Below, one piece after another: positions 43,067-49,797 of a stretch of DNA of 64,000 nt. The stretch lies in contig JAPSGI010000014.1 in the NCBI GenBank assembly GCA_031177685.1, forward strand, positions 1 to 64,000. The letters are read 5' to 3'. The translations under genes and the position numbers were made by a program. The notes beneath the pieces were generated by a model. It was not told where the DNA came from. It worked only from the letters and a program-made list of their open reading frames with translations, and searched no databases. The stretch's first letter is position 1, and every line of letters starts with the position of its first letter. The stretch is from Solirubrobacteraceae bacterium (GTDB lineage: Bacteria > Actinomycetota > Thermoleophilia > Solirubrobacterales > Solirubrobacteraceae).

Positions 43067-43128
43067 TGTCCGGCCTCCGACGGAGGCTTCGGTCAGCGAC
43101 GACTGAGGGTCCGAAGGAGGGCCGGACA
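43067..43128. repeat. Inverted repeat flanking the transposase leader
   Basis: TGTCCGGCC at 43067-43075 is matched by GGCCGGACA at 43120-43128, ending on the first base of the transposase ATG. As RNA it would hide the Shine-Dalgarno AAGGAGG (43114-43120), a common way to limit transposase translation. Confidence 0.55.
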
Positions 43129-44089
43129 TGGAAGACGGTAGATGCAAGCTCGGACTGGCGGGCAGGTTGGAGCTGGTTCGGTTGGTTGAGTCGGGTGTGT
43201 CGTTGAGGGCCGCCGCGGTGGCCCTCAACGTCGCGCCGGCGACGGCGCATCGCTGGTGGCATCGCTGGCGGGCGGCCACCGATGCCGAGCGCGCGTCGCG
43301 GTCGTGTTGGGAGCGCGTCCGCCGGTGCCGCGCTCTTGTCCTTGGCGGCTGAGCGACGGCGAAGAGCAGCGCATCCTGCAGGCGCGAGCGCGCACGAACT
43401 ATGGGCCGGCGCGCCTGGCGGGGCTCGTGGGTTATCGGCGCTCGACGGTATGGAAGGTTCTGGCTCGTCACGGCTGCTCGCGGCGTGCTCGCGGGCCGCG
43501 CCAGTCGTTTCGGCGCTATGAGTGGGCGCAGCCCGGCGCGTTGTTGCACCAGGACACCAAGCGCCTGCAGCGCTTCCACGAGCCCGACCACTGGGCCACC
43601 GGCGACCGGCGCGAGATCGCGCGCAACCGCGGGTCGGGCTATGTCTATGCCCATTGCATGGTCGACGACCACAGCCGCCTGGCCTACGTCGAGCTGCACA
43701 GCGCCGACAGCACTCAGGCCGCCAGCGCGACCCTGCAGCGCGCGATCGCGTGGATGCGCGAGCAGGGCTGCGGCCCGCCCGAGGCGGTCATGACCGACAA
43801 CGCCTTCGTCTATCGCTACGGCCGCGCCTACCAGCAGCTGCTGGCCGACTACCAGGCCCGCCACATCCTCACCCCGCCCTACACGCCGCGCTGGAACGGC
43901 AAGGTCGAACGCTTCATCCAAACCCTCGACCGCGAATGGGCCCACCGTCGCCTGTGACCTAACAGCACCACACGCGACCGCAGCCTGGCATCCTGGCTTC
44001 GCTACTACAACCGCCGCCGACCCCACACCTCACTCGGCGACCGGCCACCCATCACCCGCGTTCACCAAGACCGAGGGCACGACAGCTAG
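43128..44089 (+). pseudogene. IS481-family transposase, broken by frameshift and nonsense codon
   Basis: The N-terminal HTH is in one frame (KLGLAGRLELVRLVESGVSL, ATAHRWWHRWRAATDAERAS). Near 43300 the reading changes frame, and the rest (LSDGEEQRILQARARTNYGP, GYRRSTVWKVLARHG) continues to 43957. The DDE residues are present: D in LLHQDTKRL, D in VMTDNAFVY, E in GKVERFIQTL. A TGA at 43955-43957 interrupts the frame, but the same frame then gives NSTTRDRSLASWLRYYNRRR, HTSLGDRPPITRVH and a TAG at 44087, the normal family C-terminus. Two lesions imply an inactive copy. Confidence 0.85.
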
Positions 44090-44790: not shown

Positions 44791-44828
44791 CAGGAGGACC
44801 CCGCGCACGGGCGGCGAACGCCTCGCCC

Positions 44829-46100
44829 ATGCGCAACCGGACACTGCACGCGTCGCTCCGCGACTTCTCCGAGCAGGCCGCCTTCCAGCTCGAGGCCGAC
44901 GCGGCCGGCGGCGTCGAGATCCCCTTCGAGGTCGTCGAGTCGCCCGGCGCCCGCGCGCCGCTGTACTGCTACCGGCCGCTGACCGGACAGTTCATCCGCG
45001 AGCGGCTGGGCGTGCTCGCGCGCCTGCCCACCTACGGCCCCGCCAAGGCCGCGATCGCGTCGCTGGGCGGGGTGGACGCCTACCTGCGCGTGCGCGGGGA
45101 GCCCCGCGTGCCGCAGGACGCGAGCGAGCTGGCCGACGCGGCGCTGCGCTCCTTCCTCGCCGCGATGTACGCGGAGGCCAGCCAGTTCGAGTTCTCCGCC
45201 GAGCGCTTCGCGCGAGCGTACGGCGAGCTGGAGGCCGCCGTCTACGAGACGCGCTCGCTCGCCGCGGTGATCGTGCCGCTGCACGGGCTGCAGCTGGTCT
45301 CCGACGAGGTGCCGATCGCCGAGGGGCTCGCGCTGGTGCGCGGGGACACCGTGCAGGACGCTCCCGCCGAGGCGGTCTGGAGCCGGCCCGTCCCGGACGA
45401 CGCGCCCAACGTGCTGGCGTCGCTGACGCTCGAGCGGGCGCCGGGAGAGCCGCCCCCGATCGGGGTCGCACGGGCGCGCTTCGCGGCCCTGCTCACCGCG
45501 CTGCGCCTGGTCGACGCCGGCGGCTTCGCGCTGGGGTCCTCCGCCTGGGCGCGCACCGATGCCGGTCCCTGGCAGCTGGTCGCCCTGGGCGTGGGCGGCG
45601 GCGTGCCCGCGGGACCGCCCTACCGCGTGGAGCCCGACGAGGAGGACGAGCTGCGGGGCTTCTGCAACCTGGTGGCGCGGCGGGCCGAGTCGGCCCGCGG
45701 CGAGGTCGGCTTCGCGCTGCGGCGCTTCGAGATGGGGTGCGGGAGCGACGACCCCTTCGACGGGCTCACCGACCACCTGCTGGCGCTGCGCGCGCTGCTG
45801 GAGCCCGAGGGTCCCGCGAGCGGCCGGCTGGCCCAGCGGCTCGCGGCGATCTGCGCCATGCCCGAGCAGCGTGCGGCGCTGGCCGAGCGCACGGCCCACG
45901 CGATCTCCCTGGAGCGCGCGCTCGTAGCCGGCCTGGAGCCGGCGGCGCCGGACGCCGAGGCGCTCGTCGCCGACACCGCGCACCACCTCCGCGCGCTGCT
46001 GCGCGACGTCCTGTGCGGGCACCTCGACGACGACCTCGTGGCGGTCGCCGACGGTCTGCTGGCCGAGGCGGCGACGGGCGAGCGCGAAGTCCTGGTCTAG
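44829..46100 (+). CDS. Hypothetical protein, 423 residues
   Basis: Starts at ATG 44829; an AGGAGG lies about 30 bases upstream, too far for normal use. The sequence is soluble and mainly helical, with LYCYRPLTGQFIRERLGVLA near residue 40, LPTYGPAKAAIASLGGVDAY, and a long acidic helical C-terminus (DTAHHLRALLRDVLCGHLDD). There is no signal peptide, membrane segment or known active-site motif. Strong third-position G+C bias and lack of interruption show that it is a real gene. It follows the HxlR regulator. I do not recognise the family. Confidence 0.72.
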   Translation: MRNRTLHASLRDFSEQAAFQLEADAAGGVEIPFEVVESPGARAPLYCYRPLTGQFIRERLGVLARLPTYGPAKAAIASLGGVDAYLRVRGEPRVPQDASELADAALRSFLAAMYAEASQFEFSAERFARAYGELEAAVYETRSLAAVIVPLHGLQLVSDEVPIAEGLALVRGDTVQDAPAEAVWSRPVPDDAPNVLASLTLERAPGEPPPIGVARARFAALLTALRLVDAGGFALGSSAWARTDAGPWQLVALGVGGGVPAGPPYRVEPDEEDELRGFCNLVARRAESARGEVGFALRRFEMGCGSDDPFDGLTDHLLALRALLEPEGPASGRLAQRLAAICAMPEQRAALAERTAHAISLERALVAGLEPAAPDAEALVADTAHHLRALLRDVLCGHLDDDLVAVADGLLAEAATGEREVLV

Positions 46101-46315
46101 AGGAGCTCCATCGGCGAGTTCGGGTGCGCGCGGACGGGCATGTCGGTCTGGGCCAGGCGCTCGCCCAGGTCCTCGGGGCCCTCCGCGTAGACGACCTGCT
46201 CGCTCGGCTCGAGCGGGACCGGGTCGCGGTCCTCGAGCCTCGCCCCGGCGGCCTCGACCTCCTGGCGCAGCGATTCCAGGTCGACGTCGGCCGATGTCGT
46301 CAGCAGCCACTTCAC
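46097..46315 (-). CDS. Small protein resembling a peptidase I9-type propeptide/inhibitor
   Basis: Protein of 72 residues from GTG 46315. Predicted strand-helix-strand-helix-strand order: KWLLTTSAD, VDLESLRQEVEAAGARL, EQVVYAEGPEDLGERLAQ, then MPVRAHPNSPMELL. The last segment parallels PGVRVWPNSDLTLYE in the N-terminal domain of the subtilase encoded 23 bases upstream on the same strand, including an identical PNS. I9-type domains end in just such a strand that sits on the protease active site. Hence a stand-alone, possibly trans-acting inhibitor or chaperone is suggested; this is inference from a short match. Confidence 0.6.
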   Translation of the reverse strand: MKWLLTTSADVDLESLRQEVEAAGARLEDRDPVPLEPSEQVVYAEGPEDLGERLAQTDMPVRAHPNSPMELL

Positions 46316-46338
46316 GCCACAAAGCGTGGCACAGTCGC

Positions 46339-47670
46339 TCAGACGCGTTCGGGCGCCAGCGCGTCGAAGGCGCGGGCCGCGTTGACGACGCCGCGCCCGA
46401 AGTCCGGGTCCCACTCGGCATCGACGGTCCTGGACGCGCCCTGCACCAGCGCCGTGCGCAGCCGCTCGGGCGTGAGGTCCGGGAACGCGCTCAGCAGCAG
46501 CGCGGCCACCCCCGCCGCCACCGGGGTCGCGGCGGAGGTGCCGTTGTCGAACGGCTGCTCGTCGCCCCCCGGGCGCCCCGGCCCGAAGTTGGCGAAGACG
46601 TGGCTGTAGGCGGCGAGGTCGGGCTTCTGTGGCTCGAACATGCCGGGGCCCTGCGACGAGTAGCCGATGCGCTCGTGGCGGCTGTTGACCGCCGCGATCG
46701 TGATCGTCTCGGCCAGGCTGTTGGCGGCGTGGATCGAGCGCCCGGCGCCGATGCCGCTCGGGTGGCACGCGCCGCTCGGGCAGTCCGCTCCGCAGTTGCC
46801 GGCCGCGAAGAAGGCCGGGGCTCCGGAGGCGACCACCTCGCGCACCTTGCGGTGCAGCGGGTGGGTGACGTCCCAGATCTCATGGTTCGGCGCGTCCTCG
46901 CGGTCGGGCACGCCGACGAAGCCGTAGCTGTTGTTGGAGAGGTGCGGCGTGCCGTCCAGGCGGCGCTGCTCGAGCAGCGCCTGGAACATCGCCAGCGCGT
47001 CGCCGGAGTTGGTCGGGCCCAGGAACGGGTAGTCGAAGATCTCCGCGTCGGGCGCCGCGATCAGCACGTCGGCCGCGCACATCGAGCCGTGCGAGGTGAC
47101 CGGCGCCGTGCCGGGCCGGGAGGAGGGCTGGCCCTTCAGTCCGCCCGTCACCGGGTACGTGTCGCCGTCGACCCCCTCGTCGATCACCGCGACCTTCACG
47201 CCCGCCCCGCGCGCGCCCGTCTCCCAGACGCGCTCCACGCCGAGCAGCTCCCGGATCTCCTCGATCGACGCGCCCGGCCGGAAGGGACGGCAGTCGACGT
47301 GGGCCTGCGCGGTCTCGTACAGCGTCAGGTCGGAGTTCGGCCACACCCGCACGCCCGGGCGCGCCTGCAGCTCCTCCAGGCGCTCGCTGCTCGCCTGCGC
47401 CGCCACCACCATCGTGCGCGACGCGACGTCCGGGTTCTCCTCGGTCGTGGCGAAGGCGGTCAGCGCGCCGGCCGGGGCCGGCTGGTCCGCGGCGCTGAAC
47501 ATCGGCACGGGGATGAGCTGCTGGACCTCCAGCCCCAGCCCGGCGACCCGGTCCATGAGCGCGCCGACCTGGCTCTCGGCCTCCGACTCGGACTCCAGGG
47601 CCGCCGTGAACAGTCCGAAGCCACGCTCCTCCGGGGCGTCGAACTCGAGCAGCACGTTGACGTTCGCCAT
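46339..47670 (-). CDS. Intracellular S8-family serine peptidase (subtilase)
   Basis: Protein of 443 residues. The triad is D164 in VAVIDEGVDGD, H194 in VTSHGSMCAAD and S379 in NGTSAATPVAAGVAALLL; the oxyanion Asn is N292 in AAGNCGADC. DEG in place of DTG/DSG is a mild variant. Residues 1-120 form a separate N-terminal domain with an I9-like ending (VRVWPNSDLTLYE). There is no signal peptide, so it should act in the cytoplasm, unless exported by another route. The 72-residue gene follows directly. Confidence 0.9.
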   Translation of the reverse strand: MANVNVLLEFDAPEERGFGLFTAALESESEAESQVGALMDRVAGLGLEVQQLIPVPMFSAADQPAPAGALTAFATTEENPDVASRTMVVAAQASSERLEELQARPGVRVWPNSDLTLYETAQAHVDCRPFRPGASIEEIRELLGVERVWETGARGAGVKVAVIDEGVDGDTYPVTGGLKGQPSSRPGTAPVTSHGSMCAADVLIAAPDAEIFDYPFLGPTNSGDALAMFQALLEQRRLDGTPHLSNNSYGFVGVPDREDAPNHEIWDVTHPLHRKVREVVASGAPAFFAAGNCGADCPSGACHPSGIGAGRSIHAANSLAETITIAAVNSRHERIGYSSQGPGMFEPQKPDLAAYSHVFANFGPGRPGGDEQPFDNGTSAATPVAAGVAALLLSAFPDLTPERLRTALVQGASRTVDAEWDPDFGRGVVNAARAFDALAPERV

Positions 47671-47722: not shown

Positions 47723-48864
<1,142 letters not shown>

Positions 48865-48868
<4 letters not shown>

Positions 48869-49797
48869 AGCGCCACCTCCAGCTCCCGGGAGAGCCACTC
48901 GAGCTGCTCGACGCCCAGTTCGGGCTCGAACACGAACGGCAGCCGGGCGGGCTCGCGGCCGGTGGCCTCCTCCAGGCGGGCCACCTGGTCGCGCTGGGCG
49001 CGGGCACGGCGGTGCTCGGACAGCGCGGCGCGCAGCGCGGCCCGCGCCACGGGCGTGCCGGCCGTCTCGGCCGCGCGGGCCAGCGCGCCGGCCTGCCGGG
49101 GCCCGAAGCGCTCGGGATACAGCGCGTTGACGATCACGCGGTCCAGCGGGCGGCCCAGCTCGCGGCGCAGTCGGGCGCGCAACTCGAGCGTCTCGGCGAC
49201 GGGCATCTCCTCGGGCAGCGCGACCGCGACCACGCCCGTGTGGCGCTCGTCCACGATCGTCTCGTGGATCGCGCGCCCCTGCTGGGCGACCGGCCCGACC
49301 CGAGCCGCGTTGGCGAAGGTCAGCGGCGTGCGCAGGATGGCCAGCCCGTGCCCGGTGGAGGGCGCGTCGACGATCACCAGGTCGTAGCGCTCCCCGCCGC
49401 GCGTGCGCCGCTGGAGCTGCGCGAGCTCCCAGATCTTGCCCATGGTCACCAGCTCGCTCATCCCCGGGGTGGCGACGGCGAAGTACCCGAACATGCGCGA
49501 GCCCGACACGAGGTCGGCCAGCGGCTTGACCCGGATCTGCATGTGCAGGTACTCGTCCAGGGCCTGCTGGGGGTCGATGGAGATCGTCCACAGCCCGCCG
49601 GCGAGCTCGACCTCGCGGAAGTGCGAGTCCTCCCCGTGGAAGGCGCGCGCGATGCGGTCCTGGTGGGCGACCTCCACGACGATCGTCCGCCGCCCCTGGC
49701 GTGCCGCAACCATCCCCAGCGCGGCGGCCACGGTGGACTTCCCGACGCCTCCCTTTCCGGTCACGAAGAGCAAGCGCTTGTCGAGCAGGTCGCCCAT
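48865..49797 (-). CDS. ArsA/Get3-family ATPase, second of a pair
   Basis: Protein of 310 residues with P-loop VTGKGGVGKST (residues 12-22), VEVAHQDRIARAF, LVIVDAPSTGHGLAILRTP and VIVNALYPERFG. It resembles Rv3679. Partners of this kind form a heteromeric Get3-like complex reported in mycobacteria; its client is uncertain. As first gene of the two-gene unit it begins at ATG 49797. Confidence 0.9.

Follow-up and report, generated by a model that had tools for sequence, protein, structure and literature searches.

The window, the whole stretch of 64,000 nucleotides of a Solirubrobacteraceae bacterium that was analysed, carries on its minus strand a pair of genes which we consider likely to form a two-gene module, in which a subtilase that is apparently cytoplasmic is inhibited in trans by a free propeptide-like protein. 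The observations behind this are the gene pair itself, the homology between the small protein and the N-terminal domain of the subtilase (N-domain), the conserved linkage of the two genes, purifying selection on the smaller one and the predicted fold of its product. The features of the pair are:

47317..47670, minus strand: N-terminal propeptide-like domain of the subtilase, residues 1-118, ending WPNSDLTLY; homologous to the small protein
46339..47670, minus strand: S8 subtilase, 443 amino acids, catalytic triad D164/H194/S379 and oxyanion N292; no evident signal peptide
47179-47181, 47089-47091 and 46534-46536: codons for D164, H194 and S379 of the subtilase triad, respectively
46316..46338, minus strand: intergenic gap of 23 nt between genes on the same strand, the small gene being downstream of the subtilase
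46097..46315, minus strand: free propeptide-like protein, 72 amino acids, GTG start at 46315, Leu72 C-terminal; proposed trans inhibitor

The larger gene clearly encodes a member of the peptidase S8 family. Its only Pfam match is Peptidase_S8 (PF00082, residues 155-427; 92.1 bits against a cut-off of 21.8), and the Asp-His-Ser triad and oxyanion Asn are in place. The initial annotation had put a subtilase lacking a signal peptide at 46339-47670; the coordinates are right and an N-terminal hydrophobic segment is indeed absent. The highest 10-residue mean hydropathy at the N-terminus is 1.20, compared with 2.73 in secreted pre-subtilisin E, and the first 35 residues stayed under the secreted pre-subtilisin value in all ten subtilases examined (L046 being intermediate, 1.92 vs 2.73), as judged from a simple hydropathy comparison, which is different from a signal-peptide predictor. 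As strand 1 of the N-domain starts within the first few residues in aligned family members, there is scant space for a signal peptide. Judging from its N-terminus, the enzyme is apparently cytoplasmic.

Several cysteines are a feature of this subtilase (Cys127, Cys293, Cys297 and Cys302), with the motif AAGNCGxxCPxxxC found family-wide immediately C-terminal to the oxyanion Asn and a further conserved Cys immediately past the N-domain across the family. It is possible that they form a metal site or a redox link between the segment following the propeptide and the active-site loop.

A 72-residue open reading frame had also been described 23 bases downstream on the same strand, and both reading frames are present at these positions; the two genes are probably expressed as one transcript. 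The GTG start is backed by relatives that start with MKW, MRW, MDW or MDQW at the corresponding position. No clear Shine-Dalgarno sequence was found upstream of this GTG. The small protein has no family in Pfam, NCBIfam, PADLOC or PHROGs, and searches of PDB sequences with the single sequence or a profile gave no significant match (a propeptide chain, 8c4z, ranked second, E 2.1).

The end of the small gene is overlapped by 4 nt by a convergent gene of about 425 codons (44823-46100, plus strand) with no Pfam match. Upstream of the subtilase, on its strand, are two ArsA/Get3-like ATPase genes (47723-49797), the nearer of which ends 52 nt before the subtilase; a Pfam match (ArsA_ATPase) was obtained for the farther gene only and the nearer one was assigned by eye. 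These ATPase genes are absent from the other loci compared. An IS481-type transposase-like sequence, in two overlapping frames and also assigned by eye, lies at 43128-43957 (plus strand).

The small protein is homologous to the N-domain of the subtilase. Their C-termini are alike (VRVWPNSDLTLYE and VRAHPNSPMELL), and a hidden Markov model (HMM) built from 12 small proteins not only recovered, from the full set of six-frame ORFs of the loci, small genes left out of its building but also hit family subtilases, in most cases where the N-domain ends (best E 3e-5). Alignment of 18 small proteins with 16 N-domains by hhalign gave a score of 52.3 (E 2e-9), compared with no more than 14.3 in 150 column permutations and 13.1 for a reversed profile. 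The C-terminal likeness pointed out in the initial annotation is therefore above chance by both methods. It is strongest in the last strand and tail, and the N-domain has a long insertion between strands 2 and 3. The description of the small protein as a trans copy of the enzyme's own propeptide is correct as regards homology, but the two have diverged and fall short of near-identity.

Scanning a single genome for each species turned up three relatives of the subtilase (in Mesorhizobium, a Rhodobacteraceae bacterium and a Gemmatimonadetes MAG), to which were added those from the class and phylum of the window genome, an alphaproteobacterial class and the phylum Gemmatimonadota, while plasmid records contributed relatives from Streptomyces akebiae and Nonomuraea. 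The family is patchy, occurring in 5/396, 4/399, 4/130 and 2/240 genomes (one of the last two being an outgroup), and one copy of the pair sits on a Streptomyces plasmid. That the small gene is kept beside homologous subtilases, as the reading in the initial annotation required, is true of 20 of the 21 family members, from Actinomycetota, Alphaproteobacteria and Gemmatimonadota, a count in which one genus supplies five loci, another genus two and one phylum four, close relatives being included. In 15 loci the small gene follows the subtilase on the same strand after approximately 1 to 100 nt; in all four Gemmatimonadota loci it is convergent, on the opposite strand; and in one locus (L022) it is upstream of the subtilase. 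No ORF other than those of the pair was found to be common to all the distant loci compared. An oxidoreductase gene neighbours the pair in both L026 and L066, which are actinomycete loci.

The single unpartnered subtilase (L025) comes from Nonomuraea, and its paralogue in the same genome has the pair. Since Nonomuraea gerenzanensis has two family subtilases (L025 and L066) with an adjacent partner beside one only, one free protein might serve both. For two more distant subtilases, a search of the whole plasmid carrying L024 (Sinorhizobium) matched only the enzyme's own N-domain and no separate partner, and a partner search of the genome carrying L041 (G913) found nothing. Among the genomes of the window's class, a search with the small protein yielded one clear relative (G301), matches at E 0.002-0.009 being treated as chance.

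The small gene is under purifying selection, with dN/dS of about 0.07 to 0.45 in six pairs. Distances between small proteins correlate with those between catalytic domains (Mantel r 0.90, p 1e-4), a result which shared descent alone can yield.

Assignment to the I9 family, which the initial annotation had suggested for both the N-domain and the 72-residue protein, failed on a profile search. The small protein of the window does not reach the gathering score of Pfam Inhibitor_I9 (PF05922), for which the best of 18 relatives gave E 0.22, and none of the 16 N-domains matches it (one has a Fervidolysin_NPro-like match at E 0.15). Elsewhere in the window genome this Pfam model does detect a canonical I9 domain (E 4e-9), located in a 521-residue open frame (L051, contig C12 of G000). 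Using hhalign against seven I9 sequences, including BPN', subtilisin E, POIA1, PBI2 and proteinase K, scores were 13.8 and 14.4, near those of reversed controls (11.4 and 14.5) and non-significant. As neither part passes the Inhibitor_I9 profile, membership of I9 is not claimed.

With regard to fold, the same annotation fared better for the small protein, which is of propeptide type by prediction. Its AlphaFold2 model (pLDDT 90) has the order E-H-E-E-H-E; a model of the full-length subtilase, built from only four sequences, had a pLDDT of 41, too low for the fold of the cis N-domain to be read from it. On re-alignment of Foldseek candidates with VIA-align 2, the BPN' prosegment (1spb_P) came first (Z 8.2, rmsd 2.5, 67 residues), and pro-subtilisin E, Tk-subtilisin propeptides and POIA1 were also among the matches. 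However, unrelated ferredoxin-like proteins (mitoribosomal) reach Z 8.0, within 0.2 of the prosegment, and Foldseek's own order, in which POIA1 was only 39th, does not favour propeptides, so fold alone is not proof. The case for a propeptide-like protein is made jointly by the predicted fold, the homology to a domain preceding an S8 enzyme and the anatomy of the tail. Taken together, these suggest that the small protein most likely works like an I9 inhibitor, yet it is not filed in I9. The alpha/beta model, which is not Ig-like, and the lack of a BsuPI match in Pfam speak against membership of the Bacillus IPI family (PF12690, BsuPI).

Tail anatomy was compared with that of BPN', where Asp71 is a helix cap (PMC6993865) and P1, Tyr77, is six residues past it. 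The N-domain of the window subtilase ends N112-S-D-L-T-L-Y118 and the small protein N66-S-P-M-E-L-L72, Leu72 being its last residue. By this spacing, Tyr118 would be P1 of the N-domain with Asn112 as its cap, and Leu72 and Asn66 would have the same roles in the small protein. The structural alignment independently stops at model residue 72 and prosegment residue 77, the P1 position. POIA1 (whose sequence matched a PDB entry in full) and PBI2 likewise stop exactly six residues past the capping Asp. The tails of the Mesorhizobium pair are NSPMALF and NSEMKLY-stop. In the register adopted here, the window and Mesorhizobium small proteins terminate at the putative P1, and many other relatives have 1 to 13 extra residues. 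All 16 N-domains tabulated have a hydrophobic P4. Type-B N-domains lack a conserved P1, and type-B small proteins often have I-E-P-F, with Pro at P2 and a tail beyond P1, in a register taken from the alignment. Gemmatimonadota partners (L019, L043, L044 and L045) are set apart from the other groups by ending QEPA(S/G), in which P4 is polar.

From these data we infer how cleavage, docking, inhibition, a shared transcript and the cell biology of the pair may fit together. The cis N-domain would aid folding of the subtilase and block its active site until cleavage, probably after Tyr118. The downstream gene would supply a separate relative of this domain able to rebind the mature enzyme, docking where the cleaved propeptide would, with its sheet packed on two surface helices and Asn66 capping a helix. 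The C-terminal MELL might then fill subsites S4-S1, placing Leu72 in S1 and inhibiting the enzyme in the manner of a product. Being a product of the same locus, yet not covalently tied to one enzyme molecule, such an inhibitor would set a threshold: the protease would act only once active enzyme outnumbered inhibitor, or once the latter had been degraded or titrated. The protease would thus be locked twice, by the cis N-domain while it folds and by the free relative afterwards.

The small protein might instead be the antidote to a cytoplasmic protease that is harmful when uncontrolled, and be released on a trigger such as phage infection, in a toxin-antitoxin-like or abortive-infection module that would act as a switch, possibly in defence, once the free inhibitor is lost. 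This overlaps with the preferred explanation at the molecular level, and a self-contained two-gene unit that is patchy across several distant phyla, has one copy on a Streptomyces plasmid and encodes an apparently cytoplasmic enzyme would suit it. We nevertheless regard it as unlikely: no defence or mobile context supports it, PADLOC matches are generic subtilase ones only, no relative was found in a scan of 2.9 million viral contigs and the protease gene comes first in most loci. A role as a trans folding helper, in which the small protein serves as an additional domain of intramolecular-chaperone type and not as an inhibitor that stays bound, is a degree less probable again. The propeptides of subtilisins act as chaperones as well as inhibitors (PMC6993865; PMC10580911), and homology of the small protein to the N-domain fits this role too; however, termini at the putative P1 suit product-like inhibition, and a second helper looks redundant as the enzyme already has its own N-domain.

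Binding away from the active site, as an adaptor, substrate or structural subunit, has in our view a slim chance. The binding functions of ferredoxin-like folds are diverse, and the model is matched about as closely by ribosomal S6-type proteins, but homology to the cis N-domain, concentrated as it is in the last strand and tail, favours the propeptide site. It is scarcely credible that the small gene is a chance ORF or what is left, without function, of a duplicated propeptide. Its shortness and the lack of a clear Shine-Dalgarno sequence would be in keeping with this, yet it is conserved in three phyla, has dN/dS well under 1 and has kept its linkage despite rearrangement. Trans inhibition of the subtilase by its propeptide-like neighbour is the preferred reading.

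The initial annotation had said that this would be a little-described control system. No bacterial stand-alone propeptide mimic beside a subtilase was found in the open-access papers searched (few of them from subscription journals or preprint servers), although Plasmodium SUB1-ProM is a known analogue (PMC6993865). The recurrence of the pair in distant bacteria suggests a two-part lock on the protease, in cis and in trans. It offers a simple two-gene bacterial system in a field where trans propeptide mimics have so far come mainly from fungi, plants and parasites, and, because protease, N-domain and free relative lie side by side in three phyla, it allows a direct test of how a trans inhibitor arose from a cis propeptide. 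A further question is what a doubly locked subtilase in the cytoplasm does for a bacterium.

Among known systems, IetS of the IetAS defence system is a cytoplasmic bacterial S8 protease. PADLOC matches of the subtilase to IetS are weak (E 0.0024 and above), and, unlike IetAS, the window locus has no identified IetA-type ATPase, the farther upstream neighbour matching ArsA_ATPase. Isp1 of Bacillus subtilis is likewise a bacterial cytoplasmic subtilisin with a proteinaceous inhibitor, the Ig-like IPI (BsuPI), whose gene is not near that of Isp1 (PMC3901451). In contrast to the N-domain of approximately 118 residues in the window subtilase, Isp1 has a propeptide of only 18 residues (PMC3901451).

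POIA1 (Pleurotus), PBI2 (yeast) and SPI-1 (Arabidopsis) resemble the small protein of the window in size and predicted fold, and the first two in ending six residues past the cap, which is Asp in these and Asn66 here. They differ in being eukaryotic, and the window protein has no significant profile match to them. We know of no pairing of any of the three with the gene for its target. Stand-alone propeptide mimics are proven inhibitors in eukaryotes and, for subtilases, have been described from fungi, plants and apicomplexans; MEROPS I9 holds three well-characterised examples, also eukaryotic, and TgMIC5 and SUB1-ProM came later (PMC6993865). Plasmodium SUB1-ProM is encoded beside subtilisin-like genes and inhibits its subtilase (PMC6993865). 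It is like the window protein in being a free propeptide-like protein beside a subtilase, its core likewise a four-stranded sheet bearing two helices, and unlike it in being eukaryotic and probably located in the parasitophorous vacuole; the analysis gave no sequence link between them. The propeptides of BPN', subtilisin E, Tk-subtilisin and pernisine share with the N-domain a position before the S8 domain, and the BPN' prosegment is the best re-aligned match to the small protein. Those propeptides act in cis, and their enzymes are secreted; in the window, an enzyme without an evident signal peptide is accompanied by a second relative with a gene of its own.
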